From Arenicola marina (lineage: Eukaryota; Annelida; Polychaeta; Arenicolidae): 64,000 nt of DNA. Numbering within the stretch: the stretch's first letter is position 1; every line of letters begins with the position of its first letter. The notes under the pieces were generated by a model. It was not told where the DNA came from and made no database searches. It saw nothing but the letters and a program-made list of their open reading frames with translations. This document shows, piece after piece, positions 1-55,400 of this stretch. The stretch is from positions 18,793,574-18,857,573 of the forward strand of contig OZ025248.1 in NCBI GenBank assembly GCA_964019135.1, written 5' to 3'. Both the position numbers and the translations under genes were made by a program.

Positions 1-3000
1 TGTGACGGCGTCGTGTGTCTGTCTTAAGAATGTGACGGCGTCGTGTGTCTGTCTTAAGCCTGTGACGGCGTCGTGTAGCGGTCTTAAGAATGTGATGGCG
101 TCGTGTGTCCGTCTTAAGCCTGTTGCGGCTTCATGTGGCGGTCTTAAGAATGTGATGGCGTCGTGTAGCGGTCTTAAGAATGTGATGGCGTCGTGTGTCT
201 GTCTTAAGCCTGTGACGGCGTCGTGTGTCTGTCTTAAAAATGTGACAGCGTCGTGTGTCGGTCTTAAGCCTGTGGCGGCGTCGTGTAGCGGTCTTAAGAA
301 TGTGATGGCGTCGTGTGTCTGTCTTAAGCCTGTGACGGCGTCGTGTGTCGGTCTTAAGAATGTGATGGCGTCGTGTGTCGGTCTTAAGAACGTGATGGCG
401 TCGTGTGTCTGTCTTAAGCCTGTGACGGCGTCGTGTAGCGCTCTTAAGCTAGTGACGGCGTCGTGTGTCTGTCTTAAGAAAGTGGTGGCGTCATGTAGCG
501 GTCTTAGGAATGTCATGGCGTCGTGTGTCTGTCTTAAGCCTGTGACGGCGTCGTGTAGCGGTCTTAAGAATGTGATGGCGTCGTGTGTCTGTCTTAAGCC
601 TGTGACGGCGTCGTGTGTCGGTCTTAAGAATGTGATGGCGTCGTGTGTCGGTCTTAAGAATGTGGTGGCGTCGTGTGTCTGTCTTAAGCCTGTGACGGCG
701 TCGTGTAGCGGTGTTAAGCCTGTGACGGCGTCGTGTGTCTGTCTTAAGAATGTGATGGCGTCGTGTGTCTGCCTTAAGCCTGTGACGGCGTCGTGTGTCG
801 GTCTTAAGAATGTGATGGCGTCGTGTGTCGGCCTTAAGAATGTGACGGCGTCGTGTGTCGGTCTTTAGACTGTGACGGCGTCGTGTTTCGGTCTTTAGCC
901 TGTGACGGCGTCGTGTAGCGGTCTTAAGCCTGTGACGGCGTCGTGTGTCTGTCTTAAGAATGTGACGGCGTCGTGTGTCTGTCTTAAGCCTGTGACGGCG
1001 TCGTGTAGCGGTCTTAAGAATGTGATGGCGTCGTGTGTCCGTCTTAAGCCTGTTGCGGCTTCATGTGGCGGTCTTAAGAATGTGATGGCGTCGTGTAGCG
1101 GTCTTAAGAATGTGATGGCGTCGTGTGTCTGTCTTAAGCCTGTGACGGCGTCGTGTGTCTGTCTTAAAAATGTGACAGCGTCGTGTGTCGGTCTTAAGCC
1201 TGTGGCGGCGTCGTGTAGCGGTCTTAAGAATGTGATGGCGTCGTGTGTCTGTCTTAAGCCTGTGACGGCGTCGTGTGTCGGTCTTAAGAATGTGATGGCG
1301 TCGTGTGTCGGTCTTAAGAACGTGATGGCGTCGTGTGTCTGTCTTAAGCCTGTGACGGCGTCGTGTAGCGCTCTTAAGCTAGTGACGGCGTCGTGTGTCT
1401 GTCTTAAGAAAGTGGTGGCGTCATGTAGCGGTCTTAGGAATGTCATGGCGTCGTGTGTCTGTCTTAAGCCTGTGACGGCGTCGTGTAGCGGTCTTAAGAA
1501 TGTGATGGCGTCGTGTGTCTGTCTTAAGCCTGTGACGGCGTCGTGTGTCGGTCTTAAGAATGTGATGGCGTCGTGTGTCGGTCTTAAGAATGTGGTGGCG
1601 TCGTGTGTCTGTCTTAAGCCTGTGACGGCGTCGTGTAGCGGTGTTAAGCCTGTGACGGCGTCGTGTGTCTGTCTTAAGAATGTGATGGCGTCGTGTGTCT
1701 GCCTTAAGCCTGTGACGGCGTCGTGTGTCGGTCTTAAGAATGTGATGGCGTCGTGTGTCGGTCTTAAGAATGTGATGGCGTTGTGTGTCTGTCTTAAGCC
1801 TGTGACGGCGTCGTTTAGCGGTCTTAAGCCTGTGACGGCGTCGTGTGTCTGTCTTAAGAATGTGATGGCGTCGTGTGTCTGCCTTAAGCCTGTGACGGCG
1901 TCGTGTGTCGGTCTTAAGAATGTGATGGCGTCGTGTGTCGGTCTTAAGAATGTGATGGCGTTGTGTGTCTGTCTTAAGCCTGTGACGGCATCGTGTAGCG
2001 GTCTTAAGAATGTGATGGCGTCGTGTGTCTGCCTTAAGCCTGTGACGGCGTCGTGTGTCTGTCTTAAGCCTGTGACGGCGTCGTGTAGCGGTCTTGAGCC
2101 TGTGACGGCGTCGTGTGTCTGTCTTAAGAATGTGATGGCGTCGTGTAGCGGTCTTAAGAATGTGATGGCGTCGTGTGTCTGTCTTAATCCTGTTGCGGCT
2201 TCATGTGGCGGTCTTAAGAATGTGACGGCGTTGTGTGTCGGTCTTAAGAATGTGACGGCGTCGTGTGTCGGTCTTAACAATGTGATGGCGTCATGTGTCG
2301 GTCTTAAGAATGTGACGGCGTCGTGTGTCGGTCTTAAGCCTGTGACGGCGTCGTGTGTCTGTCTTAAGCCTGTGACGGCGTCGTGTGTCGGTCTTAAGCC
2401 TGTGACGGCGTCGTGTTACGCTCTTAAGCCTGTGACGGCGTCGTGTGTCTGTCTTAAGAATGTGGTGGCGTCATGTAGCGGTCTTAGGAATGTCATGGCG
2501 TCGTGTGTCTGTCTTAAGCCTGTGACGGCGTCGTGTGTCGGTCTTAAGCCTGTGACGGCGTCGTGTAGCGGTCTCAAGAATGTGACGGCGTGGTGTGTCG
2601 GTCTTAAGAATGTGATGGCGTCGTGTGTCGGTCTTAAGCCTGTGACGGCGTCGTGTAGCGGTGTTAAGAATGTGATGGCGTCGTGTGTCTGCCTTAAGTC
2701 TGTGACGGCGACGTGTAGCGGTCTTAAGAATGTGATGGCGTCTTGTGTCGGTCTTAAGAATGTGACGGCGTCGTGTAGCGGGCTTACGCCTGTGACGGCG
2801 TCGTGTGTCGGTCTTAAGAATGTGACGGCGTCGTGTGTCGGTCTTAAGCCTGTGACGGCGTCGTGTAGCGTTCTTAAGCCTGTGACGGCGTCGTGTGTCG
2901 GTCTTAAGAATGTGACGGCGTTGTGTGTCTGTCTTAAGCCTGTTGCGGCTTCATGTGGCAGTCTTAAGAATGTGATGGCGTCGTGTAGCGGTCTTAAGAA

Positions 3001-6000
3001 TGTGATGGCGTCGTGGGTCTGTCTTAAGCCTGTGACGGCGTCGTGTGTCGGTCTTAAAAATGTGACGGCGTCTTGTGTCTGTCTTAAAAAATGTGACGGC
3101 GTCGTGTGTCGGGCTTAAGCTTGTGACGGCGTCGTGTAGCGGTGTTAAGAATGTGATGGCGTCGTGTGTCGGTCTTAAGAATGTGACGGCGTCGTGTGTC
3201 GGTCTTAAGCCTGTGACGGCGTCGTGTAGCGGTCTTAAGCCTGTGACGGCGTCGTGTGTCGGTCTTAAGCCTGTGACGGCGTCGTGTGTTGGTCTTAAGC
3301 CTGTGACGGCGTCGTGTGTCTGTCTTAAGAATGTGGTGGCGTCATGTAGCGGTCTTAGGAATGTGATGGCGTCGTGTGTCTGTCTTAAGCTTGTGACGGC
3401 GTCGTGTGTCGGTCTTAAGCCTGTGACGGCGTCGTGTAGCGGTCTTAAGCCTGTGACGGCGTCGTGTGTCGGTCTTAAGAATGTGATGGCGTCGTGTGTC
3501 GGTCTTAAAAATGTGGTGGCGTCCTGTGCTGGTCTTAAATATGTGGTGGCGTCCTGTGCCGCCCTTAAATATGTGACGGCATCTTATGTCGGTCTTAAGA
3601 ATGTGGTGGCGTCCTGTGTCGGTCTTAAGAATGCGACGGCATCATGTTTCGGTCTTAAAAATGTGATAGCACCTTATGTCGGTCCTAAGAATGTGACGCC
3701 ATCATATATTGGTCTTAAGAATGTGACGGCGTTCTGTGTCGGTCTTAAGAATGCGACGGCATCATGTTTCGGTCCTAAAAATGTGATAGCATCTTATGTC
3801 GGTCCTAAGAATGTGACGCCATCATATGTTGGTCTTAAGAATGTGACGGCATCATGTTTCGGTCTTAAAAATGTGATAGCATCTTATGTCGGTCCTAAGA
3901 ATGTGACGCCATCATATGTTGGTCTTAAGAATGTGACGGCATATTATGTCGGTCTTAAGAATGTGGTGGCTTCCTGTGTCTGTCTTAAGCCTGTGACGGC
4001 GTCGTGTGTCGGTCTTAAGAATGTGATGGCGTCGTGTAGCGGTCTTAAGAATGTGATGGCGTTGTGTGTCTGTCTTAAGCCTGTGACGGCATCGTGTAGC
4101 GGTCTTAAGAATGTGATGGCGTCGTGTGTCGGTCTTAAGCCTGTGACGACGTCGTGTGTCTGTCTTAAGCCTGTGACGGAGTGGTGTGTCGGTCTTAAGA
4201 ATGTGATGGCGTCGTGTGTCGGTCTTAAGAATGTGATGGCGTCGTGTGTCTGTCTTAAGCCTGTGACGGCGTCGTGTAGCTGTCTTGAGCCTGTGACGGC
4301 GTCGTGTGTCTGTCTTAAAAATGTGAAGGCGTCGTGTAGCGGTCTTAAGAATGTGATGGCGTCGTGTGTCTGTCTTAATCCTGTTGCGGCTTCATGTGGC
4401 GGTCTTAAGAATGTGACGGCGTTGTGTGTCTGTCTTAAGCCTGTGACGGCGTCGTGTGTCGGTCTTAAGAATGTGATGGCGTCATGTGTCGGTCTTAAGA
4501 ATGTGACGGCGTCGTGTGTCGGTCTTAAGCCTGTGACGGCGTCGTGTGTCTGTCTTAAGCCTGTGACGGCGTCGTGTGTCGGTCTTAAGCCTGTGACGGC
4601 GTCGTGTTACGCTCTTAAGCCTGTGACGGCGTCGTGTGTCTGTCTTAAGAATGTGGTGGCGTCATGTAGCGGTCTTAGGAATGTCATGGCGTCGTGTGTC
4701 TGTCTTAAGCCTGTGACGGCGTCGTGTGTCGGTCTTAAGCCTGTGACGGCGTCGTGTAGCGGTCTCAAGAATGTGACGGCGTCGTGTGTCGGTGTTAAGA
4801 ATGTGATGGCGTCGTGTGTCGGTCTTAAGCCTGTGACGGCGTCGTGTAGCGGTGTTAAGAATGTGATGGCGTCGTGTGTCTGCCTTAAGTCTGTGACGGC
4901 GACGTGTAGCGGTCTTAAGAATGTGATGGCGTCTTGTGTCGGTCTTAAGAATGTGACGGCGTCGTGTAGCGGGCTTAAGCCTGTGACGGCGTCATGTGTC
5001 GGTCTTAAGAATGTGACGGCGTCGTGTGTCGGTCTTAAGTCTGTGACGGCGTCGTGTAGCGTTCTTAAGCCTGTGACGGCGTCGTGTGTCGGTCTTAAGA
5101 ATGTGACGGCGTTGTGTGTCTGTCTTAAGCCTGTTGCGGCTTCATGTGGCAGTCTTAAGAATGTGATGGCGTCGTGTAGCGGTCTTAAGAATGTGATGGC
5201 GTCGTGTGTCTGTCTTAAGCCTGTGACGGCGTCGTGTGTCGGTCTTAAGAATGTGACGGCGTCTTGTGTCTGTCTTAAAAAATGTGACGGCGTCGTGTGT
5301 CGGTCTTAAGCCTGTGACGGCGTCGTGTAGCGGTGTTAAGAATGTGATGGCGTCGTGTGTCGGTCTTAAGAATGTGACGGCGTCGTGTGTCTGTCTTAAG
5401 CCTGTGACGGCGTCGTGTAGCGGTCTTAAGCCTGTGACGGCGTCGTGTGTCGGTCTTAAGCCTGTGACGGCGTCGTGTGTTGGTCTTAAGCCTGTGACGG
5501 CGTCGTGTAGCGGTCTTAAGCCTGTGACGGCGTCGTGTGTCTGTCTTAAGAATGTGGTGGCGTCATGTAGCGGTCTTAGGAATGTGATGGCGTCGTGTGT
5601 CTGTCTTAAGCTTGTGACGGCGTCGTGTGTCGGTCTTAAGCCTGTGACGGCGTCGTGTAGCGGTCTTAAGCCTGTGACGGCGTCGTGTGTCGGTCTTAAG
5701 AATGTGATGGCGTCGTGTGTCGGTCTTAAAAATGTGGTGGCGTCCTGTGCTGGTCTTAAATATGTGGTGGCGTCCTGTGCTGGCCTTAAATATGTGACGG
5801 CATCTTATGTCGGTCTTAAGAATGTGGTGGCGTCCTGTGTCGGTCTTAAGAATGTGACGGCGTCCTGTGCCGGTCTTCAGAATGTGACGGCATCATGTTT
5901 TGGTCTTAAAAATGTGATAGCACCTTATGTCGGTCCTAAGAATGTGACGCCATCATATGTTGGTCTTAAGAATGTGACGGCGTTCTGTGTCGGTCTTAAG

Positions 6001-6690
6001 AATGCGACGGCATCATGTTTCGGTCCTAAAAATGTGATAGCATCTTATGTCGGTCCTAAGAATGTGACGCCATCATATGTTGGTCTTAGGAATGTGACGG
6101 CATCATGTTTCGGTCTTAAAAATGTGATAGCATCTTATGTCGGTCCTAAGAATGTGACGCCATCATATGTTGGTCTTAAGAATGTGACGGCATCTTATGT
6201 CGGTCTTAAGAATGTGGTGGCTTCCTGTGTCGGTCTTAAGAATGTGGCGGCATCATGTGTCGGGTCTAAAGAATGTGACGCCATCATGTTTCGGTCTTAA
6301 AAATGTGATGGCATCTTATGTCGGTCTTAAGAATGTGACCTCATCATATGTCGGTCTTAAAAATGTGACGTCATCATATGTCGGTCTTAAAAATGTGACG
6401 GCATCATGTGTCGGTCTTAAGAATGTGGTGGCGTCCTGTCCCGGTTTTAAGAATGTGACGGCAACATATGTCGTTCTTAAAAATGTGATTGTGTCGTGTG
6501 TCGGTCTTAAGAATGTGACGGCATCATGTGTCGTTCTTAAGAATGTGATCGTGTCGTGTGTCGGTCTTAAGAATGTGACGGCATCATGTGTCGTTCTTAA
6601 GAATGTGATCGTGTCGTGTGTCGGTCTTAAAAATGTGACGGCATCATGTGTCGTTCTTAAGAATGTGACGGCATCTTCTGTGGCACGTTG
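1..6690. repeat. 30-bp minisatellite, about 220 units, continuing past the left edge
   Basis: The sequence is a head-to-tail array of a 30-bp unit. Each unit starts tgtgacggcgtcgtg (or tgtgatggcgtcgtg) and ends gtcttaag followed by aa or cc, so an AflII-type cttaag recurs about every 30 bp. Because 30 is a multiple of 3 and the unit lacks stops in some frames, both strands carry long spurious ORFs with a 10-residue period. Units are near-identical over much of the array but become more divergent and AT-richer towards the right boundary (about 5750-6690), as expected at an array edge. The last units (6481-6660) form a 60-bp two-unit repeat. The left end is outside the window. Frame-breaking single-base insertions and internal TAG codons argue against coding. 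Confidence 0.97.
2090..6240. repeat. Higher-order repeat of about 2.19 kb within the 30-bp array
   Basis: Two copies of a block of about 2191 bp lie in tandem (about 2090-4000 and 4281-6240). Shared landmarks include the variant gtcttaatcc at 2181 and 4372, and the same single extra A (a run of six) near 3086 and 5277. The period is 73 x 30 + 1 bp, the extra base being that insertion. Each copy ends in a block of diverged, AT-richer units (about 3540-3960 and 5750-6240). A second, shorter higher-order repeat of 930 bp (31 units) links 31-840 to 961-1770. Confidence 0.85.
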
Positions 6691-7499: not shown

Positions 7500-7505
7500 T
7501 TTATT
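7500..7505 (-). terminator. Candidate polyadenylation signal for the EFLGamide exon
   Basis: The minus strand reads AATAAA here (plus strand tttatt), about 380 nt downstream of the EFLGamide stop codon. It is the first canonical hexamer I noticed on that strand after the stop. Hexamers are common by chance in AT-rich DNA, so this is a position for transcript data to test. Confidence 0.35.
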
Positions 7506-7885: not shown

Positions 7886-8364
7886 TCAGCGGCTGCTGTG
7901 ATAGTCTGCTTGTCTCAGCATGGGCAACACGTCTTGATCAGGATCAGCGGACATCGCATTTCGTTTGCCGCCGAGAAATTCAGAGAATCTCTTTTTGCCG
8001 CCAAGAAATTCAGAGAATCTCTTTTTGCCGCCAAGAAATTCTGAGAATCTCTTCTTGCCTCCGAGAAATTCTGAGAATCTCTTCTTGCCGCCCAGGAATT
8101 CCGAAAACCGCTTCTCATCCCGCTTCTTGCCGCCCAGGAATTCAGAGAATCTCTTCTTGCCTCCGAGAAATTCTGAGAACCTCTTCTTGCCTCCAAGAAA
8201 TTCGGAGAATCGTTTTGCGTCCCTCTTTCCGCCCAGGAATTCGGAGAATCGTTTTGCATCCCTCTTCCCACCCAGGAATTCGGAGAATCGTTTTCCGCCC
8301 AGGAATTCGGAGAATCGCTTTGTGATGTAGTTGGCGAAGTGTGTCTTTATATGATCTGGGGTTT
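7886..8364 (-). CDS. EFLGamide (TRH-type) neuropeptide precursor, 3' coding exon
   Basis: Read on the minus strand from a splice acceptor (ttgttttcccattttcag, AG at 8366-8365), the exon encodes a short leader ending ITKR, then 11 copies of FSEFLG, each followed by GKR or GKKR, then an acidic tail ending HSSR and a TGA stop at 7888-7886. Prohormone convertase cleavage at KR/KKR and conversion of Gly to a C-terminal amide would release 11 FSEFLGamide peptides. Two spacers are DAKR and one is DEKR. All 11 peptides are identical while Ser, Leu, Gly and Lys codons vary, the mark of selection on the peptide. EFLGamide peptides are lophotrochozoan relatives of thyrotropin-releasing hormone and act through TRH-receptor-type GPCRs. 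The exon opens in phase 1 (two bases complete a split codon), so start and signal peptide lie on an upstream exon. I found none between 8365 and 9926. The only Met is downstream of the repeats, so Met-to-stop scans miss this frame. Confidence 0.9.
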
Positions 8365-9445
8365 CTGAAAATGGGAAAACAATAGAAACAAATTAATTAA
8401 CATACATACGCATATCATGCAACACAATTAGCGTAAATAAAAATTCATCTAGGACAATTCATGTCAAATTTGATTGGATTTAAACCATTGGATAAGCAAT
8501 ACTAATGGTATCAGCCACAATTAAGGTTTCCATGACGGTGAGCTGAGATCTATTCCGCTTCCGGTGACCTAATTAGGTTAGCTGCTGACCTACGCTTTTA
8601 GTATGCGTTACTTGATACTGTTCCGTTCTATAGAGTTACATAGAGACCATCAGTTTCATCATCAGATAAACAAATAGTTAAACTCGTGAGTTAATCAATG
8701 AGGGCCTTGGTGGCGAAGAAAGACTTCACGTTGTGTTGTCGAGCTTTCGCCATTGCACCGTATTAGCGGTGCTACTAATCGGTGAGACACAAAGACATCG
8801 CCCACTACTTTCCCACATCGTTGACGTCTTGCCAAGGCGAACACAAAGCGGCTTTAATGTCCTATCGGTGCCAGAACTGATAAGTGTTAGACGTTTATTC
8901 CATATATATACTATACTTACTTGCCAGCTAAAAGAAAACACGCAGAACACATGTGTTTAATTAGTGCTAAAAGCTCAGCTGCAATATAAAAAGTTGTGGA
9001 AATGTGGAGGCAATCACGAAGATAGAAAAACAAGTAGGAAATAGGAAATAGAGATATGGAAACACTGAAATGGCTGAAAGGAAGAAGTGTTAGCGTCATT
9101 CATCGGCTGCCGTAAGGTAGAGGGTTCGTGCGACTGGTGTGCAGGATTTCCAAATGAAACCGTTTAGGCAGTCCATAATCATCCAAGTCATTTCTTTGTA
9201 ACGTATGTGATATACCTATAAGTTATATGTCAGTTCGAATTTGCTGCCACACACGAAGCAAGGATGTAAACTACCTTGCAGCTAATAACTCATCGGTTCT
9301 GCCTAAGGCGTTTACATTTGTGAAAACTCAGATACAAGGGATGCTCTATATCACGATGTCCAAGCAATCATTGATTACCATAGCTGTATACTTTCTATTC
9401 ACCGAAACTGGCCGTGAACGTAATATCAATGACAACAACTGAAAC
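8365..9445. other. AT-rich non-coding stretch between the EFLGamide exon and the CRE array
   Basis: This would be intron upstream of the EFLGamide exon, or intergenic. A strong donor-like GTAAGT is present on the minus strand near 8916-8921, preceded by a short Met-initiated stretch (MCSACFLLAG). That donor falls in phase 2, whereas the EFLGamide exon needs phase 1, so it is not accepted as its signal exon. Minus-strand AATAAA at 8899-8894 could serve the FVamide transcript, but it is about 1 kb past that stop. No other coding signal is seen. Confidence 0.45.
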
Positions 9446-9651
9446 AGCGATAGCGACGTCACCGTGACATCACCGCCACAAGATAGCGAAGTCACCGTGA
9501 CATCACCGCCACAAGATAGCGATGTCACCGTGACATCACCGCCACAAGATAGCGATGTCACCGTGACATCACCGCCACAAGATAGCGACATCACCGTGAC
9601 GTCACCGCCACAAGATAGGGACGTCACCGTGACGTCACCGCGATACCATGA
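9446..9651. repeat. 33-bp tandem repeat, about 6 copies, rich in CRE-like palindromes
   Basis: The unit contains gatagcga, then a near-palindrome gtcaccgtgac, then atcaccgccacaa. Units differ by one or two bases, mostly in the TGACRTCA-like part. The array sits between the EFLGamide exon and the 3' end of the FVamide gene. It is short and non-coding in either direction. The open frames through it follow from the 33-bp period. Confidence 0.9.
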
Positions 9652-9926: not shown

Positions 9927-11698
9927 CTAGTGTTGCGTTTGAGAGTTCGTTAGGCTCGATTGCCCTTTGGAACTGTCGGTTTCCTGGCCGCCTAAAGACA
10001 CTTCCTGTGGTGTATCCGGCAGCGGTGCTGGATGGCCGCCTTCCTTATCAAGCGCGTCGCCTTCTTTACCCGTGACGTCACGGGGCGCGTGGTCGCTGGA
10101 GCGCTTGCCCACAAACATCCGCGCTCGCTTTGCGATCTCTTCCGCGAGTTCTCGCGGGGAAAAACTCTCGTCCGAATCGGCGTTCAGGCGCGAGACTTCA
10201 CCGTCCATGGGTGTGCGCTTGCCAACAAACATACGGGCTCTCTGCACGATCTCCGGGTAGAGCCGTTTACCGACAAACATGCGCGCGCGTTTCTCTTCTT
10301 GTAGTTCGTCTTCGCGTTTTCCGACAAACATGCGAGCGCGTTTGTCTTCTGATAGTTCATCTTCGCGTTTTCCGACAAACATGCGCGCGCGTTTGTCTTC
10401 TGATAGTTCATCTTCGCGCTTTCCGACAAACATGCGCGCGCGTTTGTCTTCTGATAATTCATCTTCGCGCTTTCCGACAAACATGCGAGCGCGTTTGTCT
10501 TCTGATAGTTCATCTTCGCGCTTTCCGACAAACATGCGCGCGCGTTTGTCTTCTGCTAGATCGTAGTCGCGTTTTCCGACAAACATACGCGCGCGTTTGT
10601 CTTCTTCAAGTTCATCTTCGCGTTTTCCGACAAACATGCGTGCGCGTTTGTCCTCTGTTAGATCGTAGTTGCGTTTTCCGACAAACATACGCGCACGTTT
10701 CTCTTCTGATAGTTCATCTTCGCGCTTTCCGACAAACATGCGCGCGCGTTTGTCTTCTGCTAGATCATCTCCTCGTTTTCCGACAAACATGCGCGCGCGT
10801 TTGTCCTCTGTTAGATCGTAGTCGCGTTTTCCGACAAACATACGCGCACGTTTGTCTTCCTCTAGTTCATCTTCACGTTTTCCGACAAACATGCGCGCGC
10901 GTTTGTCCTCTGATAGTTCATCTTCGCGCTTTCCGACAAACATGCGCGCGCGTTTGTCTTCTGATAGTTCATCTTCGCGCTTTCCGACAAACATGCGCGC
11001 GCGTTTGTCTTCTGATAGTTCATCTTCGCGCTTTCCGACAAACATGCGCGCGCGTTTGTCTTCTGATAGTTCATCTTCTCGTTTTCCAACAAACATACGT
11101 GCTCGCTTCTCGGCAAAACCGAAGGCGTCAAGGTCAGTCGACCTCTTGCCCACGAACATCCGGGACCTCTTGCTCTGATCCCTAACAGCCGCAGCAGCGT
11201 CCACTGATCGCTTCCCGACGAAATGCGGCGAAAACCGGCGTCCCACAAACATCCGTGCTCGCTTCAGCATGTCCTCGTAGTCATCCGGGAAATCTGATCG
11301 CCTGCCAACAAACATACGGGCCCTCTTGAACTGCTCGAAGTCATCGGCGAGCTCGCTTGGGTCTTCGTAGTCCCGCTTTCCGACGAAGTAGTGGAAGGGT
11401 CGCTTCATGCCGTCTCTGGCGCTTGGGTAGATCCTCGCCTCTCCGCGCCGCCCCACGAACATACGGGCTCTCTTCCCGACAAACATGTGACGTCGTTTCT
11501 CGTCCTCGTCGCTCCTCTTGCCTACAAACATCCGGGCTCTTTTGTCCTCCAGCCCCACGTCATCGTTCAAGTCACTCATATATAAATCTGACATGTCACC
11601 GTCAAACTCGGCACGCTTGCCAACAAACATACGGGCTCTTTTGGCATTTGCATCTTCAATGTCTTTCTTGCCAACGAAATAACGTGTCCTTTTATCAC
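9927..11698 (-). CDS. FVamide neuropeptide precursor, main peptide exon (exon C)
   Basis: This exon encodes about 590 residues with 29 amidated peptides ending in FV-NH2: 24 copies of ARMFVamide and one each of SRMFVamide, (R)HMFVamide, TRYFVamide, PFHYFVamide and FSPHFVamide. Nearly all are bounded by KR, with GKR or GRR after the peptide. The spacers are acidic, mostly EDELSED or variants such as DYDLTED and EDELEED. The middle (about 10280-11090) is a 51-bp/17-residue tandem repeat of 16 units. A hydrophilic C-terminal tail of about 60 residues ends in NSQTQH and a stop at 9927. The -MFVamide ending matches the Mytilus inhibitory peptide/PXFVamide family of lophotrochozoans, although Arg replaces Pro. 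The acceptor is at 11700-11699 (AG before GTGATAAAAGG). The first two bases complete a Gly codon with the last G of exon A, or an Arg codon with the last C of exon B. The ORF's apparent Met upstream of the acceptor is intronic. A weak phase-1 donor-like GGTAAAG lies inside the tail near 10070. Confidence 0.95.
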
Positions 11699-12639
11699 CT
11701 ATAAATATGTACACCATAATGTCAAACAAAACTAAAAAGGAAGCAAAGATCGTAATATCTCAGTACATCAGTATCTACGAAACATATAATAATATCGCTA
11801 ATAGGAGTCAGTAATTCGTATCTTCCACGCTGCAAGAAGAACCTAGTTGGTACCATTTATCCAATGACTTCAGTATGCCTTAAAAACGTATCATCAATTA
11901 TTCTCCGATGAGAAAACACGTGACATGCAAACAACAACCACTGTTTAGGAGTCTTGCAAAACAACCAATGTTTGTGGTTGTTGTAAGTACGTTTTAATTA
12001 AGGTTGAAGGTCGGTTCAAACATTTAATTACCAGGTTCGTTAGTTTTTATGACCGACCAAAATGAAGAGTCCGGAATAACTAATGAGTGCATACAACAGC
12101 ATACAACAATCATTGGCTTCATGTGAAAATAACGTATTATTACGTATTGGGAAATGACGGTCTGTGTGAGACCTAACTACATGACAAATGACTTTTATAT
12201 ACGCCGCTCTCTAATGACAGAACGCTACGGTGCATGCCAAGGCTTTGTAATATTTACTAGATATTATCTGGAGTGAGGGTTAAGAGCTAGCGTCTGATCA
12301 CTTGCCAGTAAACAGCAAATCCGGTGCCCTCGGCGCACTCCCGTCTAACTGCCGAAAACAGTTCCCACTTAACTACCGCAACCAGTGGGCGTGTGGACCG
12401 CTGACATATGGGAGCACGGCAAAGTTGGCGGTGGAGACGGCTGGGAGGCGACAGGAGCCGTAAACCTGCTCGAGCAATGGTGCGCTTTATGGAAGGCAAT
12501 GTTTGACACGCCCAGCTAGCGGGGAGATCCATTCAGCACGTGACATATTGAATAGCTGATCGACGATGACGTGTGAGGTGGTGTGGGGGAGGGCCAACTG
12601 ATACCAGTACCAACGGTGACAAGGGTAACGGCAGAGGCG

Positions 12640-14743: not shown

Positions 14744-14896
14744 GTCGCTGCTTTCGCCATACAGATGATATCTCTGCAGCCGTCCCGATAAGTGTGGCAA
14801 AGGCCGATCGCTCTCCTTCTGTTAATGGATTGAATTCACTGTTCATCAGAAGGTCAAGGTCGTGAGAGAAAGTACGTGGGTCTGAATAAACCCGTT
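14744..14896 (-). CDS. Candidate internal propeptide exon (exon B) of the FVamide gene
   Basis: On the minus strand an acceptor (cattgcttcattcag, AG at 14898-14897) is followed by 153 bp open in one frame and by a donor GTGAGG (GT at 14743-14742). Both borders are phase 1 and 153 is a multiple of 3, so the exon can be included or skipped without changing frame. It encodes a hydrophilic segment starting RVYSDPRTFSHDLDLL and ending ISSVWRKQR. Joined to exon C, the split codon becomes Arg, giving WRKQRR-DKR immediately before TRYFVG, which is a natural propeptide-to-peptide junction. Joined to exon A, the first codon becomes Glu. I do not recognise a conserved domain. The case rests on splice sites, phase and composition. 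The frame continues upstream only as intron, and the Met at 14966 belongs to that intron. Confidence 0.55.
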
Positions 14897-15356
14897 CTGA
14901 ATGAAGCAATGGACAGAGGGCGGGAGACACGCCACTGAGAAATGGATGACGAATAATGAGTGGCACAATTCGCTAAGGTGCAGGAGGTGAGGGAGCATCA
15001 TAAGGCCATGGTCAGCGCCGTCTACCCTCGTAGAATGAGACTTACAACGAGATTCACTTGTTAGAAACGCGCCACGCCACTGAGAGTGACGGGTCTAACA
15101 TATTGTCCATATATTTAGGCTTTTCAGAAGGAGTTTGGACAGTCCATGACGTCACACGTACAGTCACGTAATGATGGGGTCAGGTGACATATTGTGCTGT
15201 CGGGGGCTCCGCGGTAGGATGACCTTCAGGCCCGGTGCTAACAAGAGTTGACGTATACCGGGTATTTGGCACCGCTAACAGTTTACATACTCTGATTATG
15301 CTCTCATTGCTACGGTTTGTTCTCTAAGTATGCTAATAAGAAGAAGGAACAGCGCT

Positions 15357-15437
15357 GCCATGACAACAGCGTCAGAACAATGGCGCCATGACAACGGCGC
15401 CATGACAACGGAGCCATGACAACGCCACGGCAACGGC
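15357..15437. repeat. Short tandem repeat, 17-18 bp, 4-5 imperfect copies
   Basis: The copies are built on gccatgacaacgg(c). Units at the edges are degenerate. No function is apparent. Confidence 0.75.
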
Positions 15438-16618
15438 GCATGGGAAAGTAACGTATACCGTCAAGAAAACGATCATGGGAATTAGACTTTACCTAGATAT
15501 TAGAAACCTATTCATAATGTACAGTGTGTCATAGTTAGAGGTCTGCAGAGATTAGCGGCAGGTGATGAGGGTCATGGGCCTGCCCCATCACTCATTGTTC
15601 GACCCTATTTCAGTGGAGATTATGGTCGGATTATGCTGGAGGTCGGCCATTATTTATAGATCAGAGGGTCGCCTATCTGAATGTGACAAACGCGACGGCC
15701 GTGTGAGGAACTTACACAAGTTAGCGCTGACATATTTCTCGTTATGTTATGCTAAAAAAAGACCAGGATAAAAATGGGGCATGCTGGGTGGGAAGGAGGG
15801 GGTGCGGCCGAAGTGATTGGTGAGGGGTGGGCAGAAGACACGTGCTGCAGAGAACAAAGGGAAGACTCCCCCAACTGTCTTCCCGCCTAACATTTAACAA
15901 GCCGCCTTTGTTGACTTGAGGCTGTGAGCGTCTCGAGAGGCGCAGAGGACGCTGGGATTCCACATCCGGGTTCAGAGAGACGTGGGAACAGTGCTGCCAC
16001 CTGATGCCCCCTTTATATGGCTCACCGCGGCCAATAATTGACTGACATGATGAGAGGATGAGAGTGCTTGTCATTAGAGATACAGACACATATAATGGGT
16101 GAGTAGGGGTTAATTATTGGGCAGTAGGCGAGGAAACGGAAGACGCTGCACAAGATAGAGAGTGAGGGGAGGGGACGAAGCGGGGGAGGAGGGGGGGGGG
16201 GGTGTACCCCAGGGTGACTGTGATTAGACTTTCATCCCGTGGCGAAATAATTTACCCAGGGAAACGATACTTTTGAATTGCCCCCACCCCTACCCCTCAC
16301 TTCGTGACCACTTGCGAAATCCCTCTCGAAGCCGTCCCCAACTACATGACCCCCCACCCACCCCTCCAACACCCCCTTAATGACCTGATGGCATTCTTCC
16401 GAAGCCCCCCCCCCCCCCCGCCCAAGGACCGTCACTCCAGTAAAGCGCTAGGTGCGTGTCCAAACGCAGAACCTCAGCATAAAACAGGTAGAAAGGATAT
16501 TTCCTGTCTGGTCGTTATGAGGAAAACCCCTTTAGAACCAACAATGGACAACCTATGCGAGTGGCATAATACCATATTATTCTGTCCAGGATATTTATTT
16601 ATAGATGCAGATTTATTA

Positions 16619-17120: not shown

Positions 17121-17980
17121 TTTTGTTTGTTCTGCGGATAGGTATAAAGCAGATACGTGCCCATGGAGCCTGTCCATGCCCCTTATGTAAGGGAAAGCCA
17201 CAATCATTCAGTTACATATTTGCGTTGGGTTCCCTTTAGCCTATAATGGCCTCGCCCCACTCCACGAAGTAAGGGCACAGCGCGATGAGCTTATGAAAGG
17301 CGGATCGATGGTGACTTAGAGCTAGCGTCGAGTCACTTCTCGCATTGAGTGCCTGGTGGGAATAATTAATTTTGTCACGCACACTAATGCAATTTGCCAC
17401 GCACCCAATCTCACCTGAAAGGACGTGAAAAATTGGTCAGGAAAACTGAACAATAGAGGCAAAGACTCAAGGAAAAATGTCGCCTGACTAACATGAAATA
17501 TTCAAGGCCGTTGCCATTTCTGTAATTTCTGTGGACCTCGCTTAGCAACAGCGCTATGGTAAGCGGGGTGGAGCCGGGTGAGGAGGGGGTGGCATATAGT
17601 CATATGTTTTCCAAGTGGTTCAGTGTAAACAAACATGACCTGTTGAGAGATGAATATACAAGTACAAATGGCATCCTGCTGTTTCCTGAAGTCTAGGGAT
17701 TGGGCTAGACAATGTCATTCAAATACAAAATATGTATGTAGCGTTATCTGCACACAACAAAAGTTGGCAGCGATTGCAATGACGCAGTGCGATTGCAATG
17801 AAGTATGCATAGCTCTATTCTGCAACCAACAGGTCCAATGATTACTTAGCTTGGCACCAAATCAAGTCAGACGTTACCACTGAGCGAGTAAGACGACACA
17901 GATAAAATACAAGACAAAAATGATATGTTATATTAAGGTCATAGTTTTTATCTTCTTGCAAAATATAAGAAAATTCTTAC

Positions 17981-18182
17981 CGTAAGATTCCAAATTTTGG
18001 TTAGCCATAATATCTTTGGCGACCATTTCGGCGAGCATGTTTTCCATGTTTTCATGCTGTGCCGCTTTGTCGGGAGCAGTCTCGTACTGCTCCGCGAGGC
18101 TCTCGTCAGATTCACACGTGACCAACGAGATTTTAATTAGGGCTAACATTACCATAACTACCACTGCCTTGTGCGACCCCAT
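17981..18182 (-). CDS. FVamide neuropeptide precursor, first coding exon (exon A)
   Basis: The ATG at 18182-18180 starts MGSHKAVVVMVMLALIKISL, a typical secretory signal peptide (basic residues, hydrophobic core to about residue 21, likely cleavage near Cys23). It is followed by an acidic Met/Glu-rich propeptide ending ANQNLESY. The exon ends with G (17981) before a strong donor GTAAGA (GT at 17980-17979). That leaves phase 1, exactly what exon C at 11698 requires, and the joined sequence reads ESY-G-DKR-TRYFVG. On the 5' side an acceptor (ttttctttcag, AG at 18199-18198) precedes 15 nt of 5' UTR, so at least one non-coding exon lies further upstream and was not found. Exons A and C together give 657 residues. 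With exon B the product would have 708. Reading past the donor gives an unspliced tail that is not coding. Confidence 0.85.
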
Positions 18183-18197
18183 GGCTGTCGTCCAGTC

Positions 18198-18529
18198 CTG
18201 AAAGAAAAGAAATACAGACATAAATATTTCAGTTATATATATTAACGTGACCAATTAATCAATTAAATTAATAATTTTATTTAATGCATGCATAAAATGT
18301 GCCAATGTTAGAGTAACGGGAATAAATACATAATGCAATTATTTGCGGACCGATGGTGAAGAAATATTTCCTGTTATAGTTCCTATATTATAAGTAACAA
18401 TTGATATACATGTACATATTAGGGGTATGAATTCATTAGGGGTATGAGTTCATACCCTAAATATATCGATGTACGTATTTAAGAAGAAATCAGAGCTGCC
18501 CATGCAAGCAGCGTTTACGGTCTGTCATC
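18198..18529. other. AT-rich stretch upstream of exon A
   Basis: This is intron or promoter-proximal sequence 5' of exon A. It contains an imperfect palindromic region with repeated aggggtatga near 18420-18462. No TATA-type promoter could be assigned, because the exon starts at an acceptor rather than a cap site. Confidence 0.4.
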
Positions 18530-32159: not shown

Positions 32160-35100
32160 CAGGGATGAGAAACCAGGGATGAGAAACCAAGGGGTACAGG
32201 CGAACAGGGATGAGAGATAGGACAGCGGGTACAGGCGATCAGGGATGAGAGATGGGACAGAGGGTACAGGCGACCAGGGATGAGAGATAGGACAGAGGGT
32301 ACAGGCGATCAGGGATGAGATGGGACAGAGGATACAGGCGACAAGGGATGAGATGGGACAGAGGGTACAGGCGACCAGGGATGAGATGGGACAGAGGGTA
32401 CAGGCGACCAGGGATGAGAGATGGGACAGAGGGTACAGGCGACCAGGGATGAGATGGGACAGAGGATACAGGCGATCAGGGATGAGAGATGGGACAGAGG
32501 GTACAGGCGACCAGGGATGTGATGGGACAGAGGGTACAGGCGACCAGGGATGTGATGGGACAGAGGGTACAGGCGACCAGGGATGAGAGATAGGACAGAG
32601 GGTACAGGCGACCAGGGATGAGATGGGACAGAGGGTACAGGCGACCAGGGATGAGATGGGACAGAGGGTACAGGCGACCAGGGATGTGAGATAGGACAGA
32701 GGGTACAGGCGATCAGGGATGAGAGATGGGACAGATGGTACAGGCCACCAGGGATGAGATGGGACAGAGGGTACAGGCGACCAGGGATGAGATGGGACAG
32801 AGGGTACAGGCGACCAGGGATGAGAGATGGGACAGAGGGTACAGGCGACCAGGGATGAGAGATGGGACAGAGGGTACAGGCGACCAGGGATGAGATGGGA
32901 CAGAGGGTACAGGCGACCAGGGATGAGAGATGGGACAGAGGGTACAGGCGACCAGGGATGAGAGATGGGACAGATGGTACAGGCGACCAGGGATGAGATG
33001 GGATAGAGGGTACAGGCGACCAGGGATGAGAGATGGGACAGAGGGTACAGGCGACCAGGGATGAGAGATGGGACAGAGGGTACAGGCGACCAGGGATGAG
33101 AGATGGGACAGAAGGTACAGGCGACCAGGGATGAGAGATGGGACAGAGGGTACAGGCGACCAGGGATGAGATGGGACAGAGGGTACAGGCGATCAGGGAT
33201 GAGATGGGACAGAGGGTACAGGCGACCAGGGATGAGAGATGGGACAGAAGGTACAGGCGACCAGGGATGAGAGATGGGACAGAGGGTACAGGCGACCAGG
33301 GATGAGAGATAGGACAGAGGGTACAGGCGATCAGGGATGAGATGGGACAGAGGGTACAGGCGACCAGGGATGAGAGATGGGACAGAGGGTACAGGCGACC
33401 AGGGATGAGAGATAGGACAGAGGGTACAGGCGACCGGGGATGAGATGGGACAGAGGGTACAGGCGACCAGGGATGAGAGATAGGACAGAGGGTACAGGCG
33501 ACCAGGGATGAGATGGGACAGAGGATACAGGCGACCAGGGATGAGATGGGACAGAGGGTACAGGCGACCAGGGATGAGATGGGACAGAGGGTACAGGCGA
33601 CCAGGGATGAGAGATGGGACAGAGGGTACAGGCGACCAGGGATGAGAGATGGGACAGAGGGTACAGGCGACCAGGGATGAGAGATGGGACAGAGGGTACA
33701 GGCGACCATGGATGAGATGGGACAGAGGGTACAGGCGACCAGGGATGAGATGGGACAGAGGGTACAGGCGACCAGGGATGAGAGATAGGACAGAGGGTAC
33801 AGGCGATCAGGGATGAGATGGGACAGAGGGTACAGGCGACCAGGGATGAGATGGGACAGAGGGTACAGGCGACCAGGGATGAGAGATAGGACAGAGGGTA
33901 CAGGCGATCAGGGATGAGATGGGACAGAGGGTACAGGCGACCAGGGAGGACAGAGGGTACAGGCGACCAGGGATGAGATGGCACAGAGGGTGCAGGCGAC
34001 CAGGGATGAGATGGGACAGAGGGTACAGGCGACCAGGGATGAGAGATAGGACAGAGGGTACAGGCGATCAGGGATGAGATGGGACAGAGGGTACAGGCGA
34101 TCAGGGATGAGATGGGACAGAGGGTACAGGCGACCAGGGATGAGAGATGGGACAGAGGGTACAGGCGACCAGGGAGGACAGAGGGTAAAGGCGACCAGGG
34201 ATGAGATGGGACAGAGGGTACAGGCGACCAGGGATGAGATGGGACAGAGGGTACAGGCGACCAGGGATGAGAGATGGGACAGAGGGTACAGGCGACCAGG
34301 GATGAGAGATGGGACAGAGGGTACAGGCGACCAGGGATGAGAGATGGGACAGAGGGTACAGGCGACCAGGGATGAGAGATGGGACAGAGGGTACAGGCGA
34401 CCAGGGATGAGATGGGACAGAGGGTACAGGCGACCAGGGATGAGAGATGGGACAGATGGTACAGGCGACCAGGGATGAGATGGGACAGAGGGTACAGGCG
34501 ACCAGGGATGAGATGGGACAGAGGGTACAGGCGACCAGGGATGAGAGATGGGACAGATGGTACAGGCGACCAGGGATGAGATGGGACAGAGGGTACAGGC
34601 GACCAGGGAGGACAGAGGGTACAGGCGACCAGGGATGAGATGGGACAGAGGGTACAGGCGACCAGGGAGGACAGAGGGTACAGGCGACCAGGGATGAGAT
34701 GGGACAGAGGGTACAGGCGACCAGGGATGAGATGGGACAGAGGGTACAGGCGACCAGGGATGAGAGATAGGACAGAGGGTACAGGCGATCAGGGATGAGA
34801 TAGGACAGAGGGTACAGGCGATCAGGGATGAGATGGGACAGAGGGTACAGGCGACCAGGGATGAGAGATGGGACAGAAGGTACAGGCGACCAGGGATGAG
34901 AGATGGGACAGAGGGTACAGGCGACCAGGGATGAGATGGGACAGAGGGTACAGGCGACCAGGGATGAGATGGGACAGAGGGTACAGGCGACCAGGGATGA
35001 GAGATAGGACAGAGGGTACAGGTGACCAGGGATGAGATGGGACAGAGGGTACAGGCGACCAGGGATGAGAGATGGGACAGATGGTACAGGCGACCAGGGA

Positions 35101-36836
35101 TGAGAGATGGGACAAAGGGTACAGGCGACCAGGGATGAGATGGGACAGAGGGTACAGGCGACCAAGGATGAGATGGGACAGAGGGTACAGGCGACCAGGG
35201 ATGAGATGGGACAGAGGGTACAGGCGACCAGGGATGAGATGGGACAGAGGGTGCAGGCGACCAGGGATGAGAGATGGGACAGATGGTACAGGCGACCAGG
35301 GATGAGAGATGGGACAGAGGGTACAGGCGACCAGGGATGAGATGGGACAGAGGGTACAGGCGACCAGGGATGAGATGGGACAGAGGGTACTGGCGACCAG
35401 GGATGAGAGATGGGACAGAGGGTACAGGCGACCAGGGATGAGATGGGACAGAGGGTACAGGCGATCAGGGATGAGAGATATGACAGAGGGTACAGGCGAC
35501 CAGGGATGAGAGATATGACAAAGGGTACAGGCGACCAGGGATGAGAGATGGGACAGAGGGTACAGGCGACCAGGGATGAGATATGGGACAGAGGGTACAG
35601 GCGACCAGGGATGAGATGGGACAGAGGGTACAGGCGACCAGGGATGAGAGATGGGACAGAGGATACAGGCGACCAGGGATGAGATGGGACAGAGGGTACA
35701 GGCGACCAGGGATGAGAGATGGGACAGAGGGTACAGGCGACCAGGGATGAGAGATGGGACAGAGGGTACAGGCGACCAGGGGTATTATGGGACAGAGGGT
35801 ACAGGCGACCAGGGATGAGAGATGGGACAGAAGGTACAGGCGACCAGGGATGAGAGATGGGACAGAGGGTACAGGCGACCAGGGATGAGATGGGACAGAG
35901 GGTACAGGCGACCAGGGATGAGATGGGACAGAGGGTACAGGCGACCAGGGATGAGAGATGGGACAGATGGTACAGGCGACCAGGGATGAGATGGGACAGA
36001 GGGTACAGGCGACCAGGGATGAGATGGGACAGAGGGTACAGGCGACCAGGGATGAGATGGGACAGAGGGTACAGGCGACCAGGGATGAGATGGGACATAG
36101 GGTACAGGCGACCAGGGATGAGATGGGACAGAGGGTACAGGCGACCAGGGATGAGATGGGACAGAGGGTACAGGCGACCAGGGATGAGATATGGGACAGA
36201 GGGTACAGGCGACCAGGGATGAGATGGGACAGAGGGTAAGGCGACCAGGGATGAGAGATGGGACAGATGGTACAGGCGACCAGGGATGAGAGATGGGACA
36301 GAGGGTACAGGCGACCAGGGATGAGATGGGACAGAGGGTACAGGCGACCAGGGATGTGATGGGACAGAGGGTACAGGCGACCAGGGATGAGATGGGACAG
36401 AAGGTACAGGCGACCAGGGATGAGATGGGACAGAGGGTACAGGCGACCAGGGATGAGATGGGACAGAGGGTACAGGCGACCAGGGATGAGAGATAGGACA
36501 GAGGGTACAGGCGACCAGGGATGAGAGATGGGACAGAGGGTACAGGCGACCAGGGATGAGAGATGGGACAGATGGTACAGCGACCAGGGATGAGAGATAG
36601 GACAGAGGGTACAGGCGACCAGGGATGAGAGATGGGACAGAAGGTACAGGCGACCAGGGATGAGATGGGACAGAGGGTACAGGCGACCAGGGATGAGATG
36701 GGACAGAGGGTACAGGCGACCAGGGATGGGAGATAGGACAGAGGGTACAGGCGACCAGGGATGAGAGATATGACAATAGGGTATGGGCGACCAGGGATGA
36801 GATGGGACAGAATGTACACGCGACAAGGGATGAGAG
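32160..36836. repeat. Mixed 33/35-bp minisatellite, about 137 copies
   Basis: Two unit lengths alternate irregularly. The 33-bp unit contains gatgagatgggacagagg, then gtacaggcgaccagg. The 35-bp unit has an extra 2 bp (gatgagagatggg). A few units are deleted (ggaggacagagg) or reduced by one base. The unit has no stop in the minus-strand frames, so all three minus frames stay open over kilobases and the +2 units shift between them. This yields Ser/Pro/Leu-rich pseudo-proteins that I do not treat as genes. Confidence 0.97.
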
Positions 36837-52455: not shown

Positions 52456-55400
52456 CTAGGAATGGTAAGACAGCGGTAGCGGGAATGATAAGTGGGGGGT
52501 AGCGGGAATGGTAAGGCAGGGGTAGCGGGAATGGTAAGGCAGGGGTAGCGGGAATGGTAAGGCAGGGGTAGCGGGAATGGTAAGGCAGGGGTAGCGGGAA
52601 TGGTAAGGCAGGGGTAGCGGGAATGGTAAGGCAGGGGTAGCGGGAATGGTAAGGCAGGGGTAGCGGGAATGGTAAGGCAGGGGTAGCGGGAATGGTAAGG
52701 CAGGGGTAGCGGGAATGGCAAGGCAGGGGTAGCGGGAATGGTAAGGCAGGGGTAGCGGGAATGGTAAGGCAGGGGTAGCGGGAATGGTAAGGCAGGGGTA
52801 GCGGGAATGGTAAGGCAGGGGTAGCGGGAATGGTAAGGCAGGGGTAGCGGGAATGGTAAGGCAGGGGTAGCGGGAATGGTAAGGCAGGGGTAGCGGGAAT
52901 GGTAAGGCAGGGGTAGCGGGAATGGTAAGGCAGGGGTAGCGGGAATGGTAAGGCAGGGGTAGCGGGAATGGCAAGGCAGGGGTAGCGGGAATGGTAAGGC
53001 AGGGGTAGCGGGAATGGTAAGGCAGGGGTAGCGGGAATGGTAAGGTAGGGGTAGCGGGAATGGTAAGGCAGGGGTAGCGGGAATGGTAAGGCAGGGGTAG
53101 CGGGAATGGTAAGGCTGTGGTAGCGGGAATGATAAGTGGGGGGTAGCGGGAATGGTAAGGCAGGGGTAGCGGGAATGGTAAGGCAGGGGTAGCGGGAATG
53201 GTAAGGCAGGGGTAGCGGGAATGGTAAGGCAGGGGTAGCGGGAATGGTAAGGCAGGGGTAGCGGGAATGGTAAGGCAGGGGTAGCGGGAATGGTAAGGCA
53301 GGGGTAGCGGGAATGGTAAGGTAGGGGTAGCGGGAATGGTAAGGCAGGGGTAGCGGGAATGGTAAGGCAGGGGTAGCGGGAATGGTAAGGCAGGGGTAGC
53401 GGGAATGGTAAGGCAGGGGTAGCGGGAATGGTAAGGCAGGGGTAGCGGGAATGGTAAGGCAGGGGTAGCGGGAATGGTAAGGCTGTGGTAGCGGGAATGG
53501 TAAGGCAGGGGTAGCGGGAATGGTAAGGCAGGGGTAGCGGGAATGATAAGTGGGGGGTAGCGGGAATGGTAAGGCAGGGATAGCGGGAATGGTAAGGCAG
53601 GGGTAGCGGGAATGATAAGGCAGGGGTAGCGGGAATGGTAAGGCAGGGGTAGCGGGAATGGTAAGGCAGGGGTAGCGGGAATGGTAAGGCAGGGGTAGCG
53701 GGAATGGTAAGGCAGGGGTAGCGGGAATGGTAAGGCAGGGGTAGCGGGAATGGTAAGGCAGGGGTAGCGGGAATGATAAGTGGCGGGTAGCGGGAATGGT
53801 AAGGCAGGGGTAGCGGGAATGGTAAGGCAGGGGTAGCGGGAATGATAAGGCAGGGGTAGCGGGAATGGTAAGGCAGGGGTAGCGGGAATGATAAGTGGGG
53901 GGTAGCGGGAATGGTAAGGCAGGGGTAGCGGGAATGGTAAGGTAGGGGTAGCGGGAATGGTAAGGCAGGGGTAGCGGGAATCGTAAGGCAGGGGTAGCGG
54001 GAATGGTAAGGCAGGGGTAGCGGGAATCGTAGGGCAGGGGTAGCGGGAATGGTAAGGCAGGGGTAGCGGGAATGGTAAGGCAGGGGTAGCGGGAATGGTA
54101 AGGCAGGGGTAGCGGGAATGATAAGTGGGGGGTAGCGGGAATGGTAAGGCAGGGGTAGCGGGAATGGTAAGGCTGTGGTAGCGGGAATGATAAGGCAGGG
54201 GTAGCGGGAATGGTAAGGCTGTGGTAGCGGGAATGATAAGTGGGGGGTAGCGGGAATGGTAAGGCAGGGGTAGCGGGAATGGTAAGGCAGGGGTAGCGGG
54301 AATGGTAAGGCAGGGGTAGCGGGAATGGTAAGGCAGGGGTAGCGGGAATGGTAAGGCAGGGGTAGCGGGAATGGTAAGGCAGGGGTAGCGGGAATGGTAA
54401 GGCAGGGGTAGCGGGAATGGTAAGGCAGGGGTAGCGGGAATGGTAAGGCAGGGGTAGCGGGAATGGTAAGGCAGGGGTAGCGGGAATGGTAAGGCAGGGG
54501 TAGCGGGAATGGTAAGGCAGGGGTAGCGGGAATGGTAAGGCAGGGGTAGCGGGAATGGTAAGGCAGGGGTAGCGGGAATGATAAGTGGCGGGTAGCGGGA
54601 ATGGTAAGGCAGGGGTAGCGGGAATGATAAGTGGCGGGTAGCGGGAATGGTAAGGCAGGGGTAGCGGGAATGGTAAGGCAGGGGTAGCGGGAATGATAAG
54701 GCAGGGGTAGCGGGAATGGTAAGGCAGGGGTAGCGGGAATGATAAGTGGGGGGTAGCGGGAATGGTAAGGCAGGGGTAGCGGGAATGGTAAGGTAGGGGT
54801 AGCGGGAATGGTAAGGCAGGGGTAGCGGGAATCGTAAGGCAGGGGTAGCGGGAATGGTAAGGCAGGGGTAGCGGGAATCGTAGGGCAGGGGTAGCGGGAA
54901 TGGTAAGGCAGGGGTAGCGGGAATGGTAAGGCAGGGGTAGCGGGAATGGTAAGGCAGGGGTAGCGGGAATGATAAGTGGGGGGTAGCGGGAATGGTAAGG
55001 CAGGGGTAGCGGGAATGGTAAGGCTGTGGTAGCGGGAATGATAAGGCAGGGGTAGCGGGAATGGTAAGGCTGTGGTAGCGGGAATGATAAGTGGGGGGTA
55101 GCGGGAATGGTAAGGCAGGGGTAGCGGGAATGGTAAGGCAGGGGTAGCGGGAATGGTAAGGCAGGGGTAGCGGGAATGGTAAGGCAGGGGTAGCGGGAAT
55201 GGTAAGGCAGGGGTAGCGGGAATGGTAAGGCAGGGGTAGCGGGAATGGTAAGGCAGGGGTAGCGGGAATGGTAAGGCAGGGGTAGCGGGAATGGTAAGGC
55301 AGGGGTAGCGGGAATGGTAAGGCAGGGGTAGCGGGAATGGTAAGGCAGGGGTAGCGGGAATGGTAAGGCAGGGGTAGCGGGAATGGTAAGGCAGGGGTAG

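Follow-up and report, generated by a model that had tools for sequence, protein, structure and literature searches.

FVamide and EFLGamide peptide families reside on one mRNA in the annelid Platynereis dumerilii. According to the account of the FVa/EFLGa gene in PMC3890597, the EFLG repeats of this mRNA lack both a Met and a signal peptide of their own, the missing Met being a known oddity there. In Platynereis, failure to observe any alternative transcript led to the proposal of stop-codon read-through (PMC3890597), and the proposal was repeated as an animal example in 2016 (PMC5100048). The Capitella teleta EFLGamide gene (Veenstra 2011) is cited as an annelid case of the same arrangement (PMC8398477, PMC3890597). 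In the oyster Crassostrea gigas, exon skipping or the use of an alternative acceptor leads to long or short MIP, or to fulicin, precursors of the gene LOC105328755, and most fulicin peptides are supported by mass spectrometry, as reported in the oyster account (PMC8398477). In the annelid Pomatoceros lamarckii, the FVamide precursor features the motifs RRMFV, RPRFV and RPKFV, which resemble RARMFV in the gene described here; the caption devoted to that precursor makes no mention of an EFLG part (PMC2762978).

The locus analyzed in Arenicola marina probably corresponds to the FVa/EFLGa gene described in Platynereis and Capitella, and to MIP/fulicin in the oyster. None of the publications consulted deals with the gene of this species. 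As in Platynereis, FVamide and EFLGamide repeats are predicted to be encoded by one gene, and the EFLG part has neither Met nor signal peptide of its own. The two cases differ in that read-through was proposed from the mRNA in Platynereis (PMC3890597, account of this gene), whereas in Arenicola the EFLG repeats have a strong acceptor of their own, in phase with a signal-peptide exon. The value of the locus lies in a genomic model of a dual FVamide/EFLGamide gene, both repeat exons being in frame with the signal-peptide exon.

The EFLGamide repeat exon

Three features of the window (the whole stretch of 64,000 nucleotides that was analyzed) mark the EFLG repeats and their flanks:

7886..8364, minus strand: EFLGamide exon, made up by a ETPDHIKTHFANYITKR spacer, 11 FSEFLGGK(K)R units and a tail; TGA stop at 7886, phase 1 acceptor
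8365..8392, minus strand: EFLGamide exon acceptor, rich in pyrimidines (TTTTCCCATTTTCAG)
7500..7505, minus strand: AATAAA, possible polyadenylation signal 3' of the EFLGamide stop (motif match only)

The stop-to-stop frame 7886..8392 holds 11 FSEFLGGK units, each followed by R or KR. Variant units are missing (11 of 11 read FSEFLGGK(K)R, with a G before the dibasic site), and the short spacers DA, DA and DE separate some of them. No Met is found upstream of the repeats within this frame, and the case shows the reason why Met-to-stop scans overlook such exons. The acceptor at 8365/8364 ranks third among the 2597 AG sites of the minus strand, and is the sole AG scoring that high between 17980 and 8000; this and all other splice scores were computed with generic, not annelid-trained, matrices. 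The preliminary description, which had reported 11 identical copies behind a good acceptor, no Met ahead of them and selection acting on the peptide, is borne out on all three points.

Ten distinct DNA sequences are found among the 11 units, the peptide being identical throughout. Variable columns in the unit alignment (7 of 24) all correspond to codon position 3, and the minimal changes between units (12 of 12, at position 3) are all synonymous. Given that about 23% of random changes are synonymous, the chance of this outcome is roughly 2e-8, changes being treated as independent. Peptide constancy is unique to the EFLG frame. In all five other frames the peptide varies, the nearest to constancy being one antisense frame, in which PPRNSE is preceded by L (8 of 11) or F (3 of 11). 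The uniformity of the array sets it apart from the oyster fulicin form, for which (F/Y)S(E/D)FL(M/-)amide types and one QGEWVamide are described in the oyster account (PMC8398477).

Another view takes the array for a 30-base minisatellite without coding function, or for a defunct relic, reading as a peptide repeat by chance. Large tandem arrays do occur elsewhere in the window, and the best non-self protein match among those listed for the genome is a repeat on C8 open in several frames. The synonymous changes described above, and the failure of any other frame to keep its peptide, speak against this reading, as do spacers that hold the frame, KR/KKR sites that are intact and a splice phase that agrees with that of the signal-peptide exon. 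The chance that the array is non-coding is accordingly rated as close to negligible.

A degenerate-codon pattern matched the 867-Mb genome at 10 places, all inside the EFLG exon, the 11th unit falling outside the pattern as it begins TTTTCG. No second copy of the exon was found in the 867-Mb genome with this search, which skips very common words and is no proof of single copy.

The putative signal-peptide exon and the FVamide exon

Further features were located upstream on the same strand:

17981..18197, minus strand: exon A, putative shared coding exon, with an ATG at 18182 in GCCATGG, the predicted signal peptide MGSHKAVVVMVMLALIKISLVTC, an acidic spacer and a phase 1 donor
9927..11698, minus strand: coding part of the FVamide exon, with 29 FVG(K/R) units; TAG stop at 9927, phase 1 acceptor at 11698
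12032..12122, minus strand: rival start exon, with an ATG at 12122 (MKPMIVVCCCMHSLVIP...) and a phase-1 donor at 12031; TATATAAAAG at 12201..12192

The 5' part of exon A is a short leader, and its 3' end, TACG/GTAAGA, lies one base into a codon. As exon A has an acceptor of its own, it would be preceded by a non-coding first exon. This acceptor ranks first among the 2597 AG sites, and the donor 17th among 3127 GT sites. The signal peptide was judged by hydropathy, not by SignalP, the best 11-residue mean of its hydrophobic core being 3.3. A scan for a Met followed by a hydrophobic run singled out 16 minus-strand ORFs between 12 and 38 kb. The phase-1 donor of exon A (9.7) is the top one in this set, the next scoring 9.0, 7.5 and 7.5. 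Windows with 10 hydrophobic residues out of 10 are found in two of the 16 ORFs, 17931..18254, which includes exon A, and 15299..15460; a phase-1 donor is absent from the latter in the donor scan of the 16 ORFs. A genome search with exon A retrieved one match, itself.

The FVamide exon sits between exon A and the EFLG exon, on the same strand and in the same phase, within an open frame (9927..11759, minus strand) rich in RARMFVGKR. ARMFVG accounts for 24 of the 29 FVamide units; the other 5 of 29 FVG units differ ahead of FV. The 11 EFLG copies had been described earlier as a striking amplification, and are indeed invariant, but look less striking beside the 24 ARMFVG copies of the sister exon. 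Selection on the FVamide units was also considered. Among 21 ARMFVGKR units, 15 of 15 minimal changes are synonymous, an argument discarded as circular, the units having been chosen for their identical peptide. Two in-frame acceptors, at 11698 and 11731, lie 33 bases apart on the minus strand, the earlier one adding an 11-aa hydrophobic stretch. Both are moderate, ranking 19 and 68 of 2597. The pair of candidate FVamide acceptors, together with an exon that could be skipped, parallels the alternative 3' splice site or exon skipping described for the MIP/fulicin gene in the oyster account, whose products are MIP (FVamide-type) or fulicin precursors (PMC8398477).

The exon A donor and the acceptors of both repeat exons are all phase 1. 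Joining exon A to 11698 leaves an open FVamide precursor of 657 aa, or of 668 aa via 11731, and joining it to 8364 leaves an EFLGamide form open over 226 aa. A signal peptide can be spliced in frame with the EFLG repeats in this computed join, and from the rival start exon as well. The link between exon A and the repeat exons is built on phase, strand, position and signal peptide, not on comparison with published precursors. An independent hidden gene with its own start was also considered and is unneeded, as exon A reaches the EFLG exon in frame. The EFLG exon is probably an alternative last exon of the FVamide/EFLGamide gene, not a precursor standing alone. The earlier reading of a hidden EFLGamide (TRH-type) precursor exon, probably spliced, was right in kind, though not complete: the likely signal-peptide exon and the FVamide exon are found in the same window, at 17981..18197 and 9927..11698.

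Judging from frames and splice motifs, the locus is probably one minus-strand neuropeptide gene, in which exon A and alternative splicing would give rise to either an FVamide or an EFLGamide (FSEFLGamide) precursor. Exon A would provide the start codon and the signal peptide, stopping after the first base of a codon. Its junction to the exon at 11698 would yield the 657-aa FVamide precursor; if the FVamide exon is skipped, junction to 8364 would yield the 226-aa EFLGamide precursor. Cleavage of the latter at KR/KKR sites, trimming of basic residues and amidation at the second Gly would release 11 FSEFLGamide peptides. We infer splicing, secretion, processing and amidation to proceed along these lines.

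Candidate peptides of the locus: FSEFLGamide, ARMFVamide and the spacer NAMSADPDQDVLPMLRQADYHSSR

Confidence in the exon A model, still good, is lowered by the candidate start exon at 12032..12122. This exon might, with a promoter of its own, replace exon A as the source of the signal peptide, in either of the two forms or in both. It features a Met followed by a hydrophobic run, a phase-1 donor scoring 7.5 and open joins to 8364, 11698 and 11731, and matches the genome once. A TATA-like TATATAAAAG lies about 70 bases 5' of the ATG; overlapping hits to TATAWAAR on the minus strand of the window are eight. Its donor is however weaker than that of exon A (7.5 vs 9.7), its core is less hydrophobic (best 11-residue mean 2.39 vs 3.3), and chance is a real option for a candidate that came out of a scan of 16 ORFs. 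It is very unlikely that 12032..12122 takes the place of exon A; the element may be due to chance, or mark an internal promoter for one form.

A search for further exons in the interval from exon A to the FVamide exon covered pieces of 30-400 bases whose splice scores exceeded set thresholds. Apart from the 33 bases that separate the two FVamide acceptors, a single piece stays in phase and open, 14744..14896 (minus strand). Its 153 bases are phase 1, have fair splice sites and keep the frame of the gene open for 51 aa; it might be an extra exon. No support for the use of 14744..14896 as an exon was found. With Pfam, the first 308 aa of the FVamide form and the entire EFLGamide form gave matches that all fell short of the cut-offs (best E 0.0034).

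Exon skipping and stop-codon read-through as possible mechanisms

Two features in the interval from the FVamide stop to the EFLG exon may bear on the structure of the FVamide mRNA:

8915..8923, minus strand: strong donor CAA/GTAAGT, first intron base 8920, rank 8 of 3127; candidate splice site
8894..8899, minus strand: AATAAA, possible early polyadenylation signal of the FVamide form (motif match); ATTAAA also at 8961 and 8858

The donor at 8920 possibly corresponds to the 3' end of the FVamide exon, in which case the EFLG exon would become part of the 3' untranslated region of the FVamide mRNA. Such a molecule would resemble the mRNAs reported for Platynereis and the oyster. A 33-base tandem array occupies 9449..9641, in the interval that separates the FVamide stop from the EFLG exon.

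EFLG peptides could in principle be made by read-through of the FVamide stop codon, as proposed for Platynereis, where an antibody labels a subset of FVa neurons and an alternative transcript is absent from Illumina reads, as stated in the account of that gene (PMC3890597). A strong donor able to bring the EFLG exon into the 3' untranslated region would fit this proposal. Past a single stop, however, the FVamide frame does not run on into the EFLG frame. In unspliced RNA it is off by one, and a second stop is met in the FVamide frame at the 55th codon past the first, with further stops beyond. Only two of the 11 GT sites of the open stretch have the needed phase (scores 3.15 and -7.54), and the donor at 8920 sits past those stops. 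Read-through is moreover unneeded, as exon A joins the EFLG exon in frame without it. It fits this locus poorly, and we consider it very improbable that EFLG peptides are made in this way.

A fused precursor would result if an internal donor close to the 3' end of the FVamide exon, at 10069 or 10201, were joined to 8364. Each donor is phase 1 and each join stays open; the product would measure 769 aa (29 FVamide units) or 725 aa (28 FVamide units), and would include the 11 EFLG units as well. The two donors rank 115 and 142 of 3127, vs 17 for exon A, and no fused form is included in the oyster account (PMC8398477). Production of a fused precursor has therefore a very low likelihood.

Skipping of the FVamide exon would be the best mechanism at this locus, and is the same published for the oyster. 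As a broader view, which we favor by a narrow margin over its negation, annelid EFLGamide peptides would arise through skipping of the FVamide exon and not by read-through, the switch would be ancestral to annelids and molluscs, and a rare isoform would have been missed in Platynereis. If this is true, the FVamide/TRH-type splice switch was already present in the last ancestor shared by annelids and molluscs. The locus makes splicing versus read-through directly testable in an annelid.

Candidate TRH-type receptor and other matches in the genome

FSEFLGamide shares almost nothing with pGlu-His-Pro-amide. A relation to vertebrate TRH is drawn because of the published receptor pairing, FSEFLGamide being described as the ligand of the Platynereis TRH-type receptor (PMC5818035; PMC4772807). 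Human TRHR, used as a query against the genome, gave at least 131 matches, 130 of the 735 candidates being scored. The best among those listed consists of two pieces on C10 (C10:889805-890530 and 987207-987431). The first piece shows 46% identity to human TRHR over query residues 1-245 (E 1.1e-55, vs 2.8e-24 for the next gene) and terminates at a GTGAGT donor. The second, about 97 kb further along, shows 62% identity; a TGA found in it is located ahead of a TGCAG acceptor, in the would-be intron. When the first piece was compared with solved receptors, TRHR was the best match by a wide margin (9.4e-57; next receptor 3.2e-27). The gene that ranks second among the matches listed most resembles neuromedin-U receptors. 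A TRH-type receptor candidate thus resides in the same genome as the EFLG exon, as in the vertebrate TRH system; its activation by FSEFLGamide would be predicted from the Platynereis pairing.

A protein search with the EFLG exon yielded at least 96 non-self matches (97 listed; best 150 of 1743 candidates scored), the best non-self match among those listed having an E value of 1.3e-12 and 34% identity. Eight match places were opened (L010 and L031-L037), and none of the eight is a copy of the EFLG exon. L031 (G000:C10:9027400-9030000) is a separate fulicin-like precursor on a contig other than that of the window, 475 aa being open within the fetched stretch, with 27 YxDFLMG or YxDFLLG units ahead of basic residues. 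It is perhaps the annelid FLa precursor termed fulicin-related in the Platynereis account (PMC3890597). As a copy of the EFLG exon it was rejected, its FLLG/FLMG-type units making it a relative in kind only. L010, L033 and L037 were dismissed as relatives since they look like simple repeats, L032 because only an unrelated frame is present, and no frame with at least 6 dibasic sites over 70 aa was found in L034-L036. L010 (G000:C8:37982862-37986464) is a very long array of the 10-aa unit YAHIAGDSKR, with several frames open on both strands. It is probably a minisatellite, though the dibasic spacing recalls a peptide precursor.

Eight other ORFs of the window gave no Pfam matches, and nothing was found within the window with ARAGORN and Rfam. 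Elsewhere in the genome, C14 carries four matches to the erythrocruorin-linker domain (Eryth_link_C), a domain of annelid haemoglobin linkers that is absent from 14 control genomes, in keeping with an annelid. Large tandem arrays, with periods of 30, 33 and 23 bases, extend over 1..6672, 32192..36835 and 52459..64000, and make up about one third of the window.
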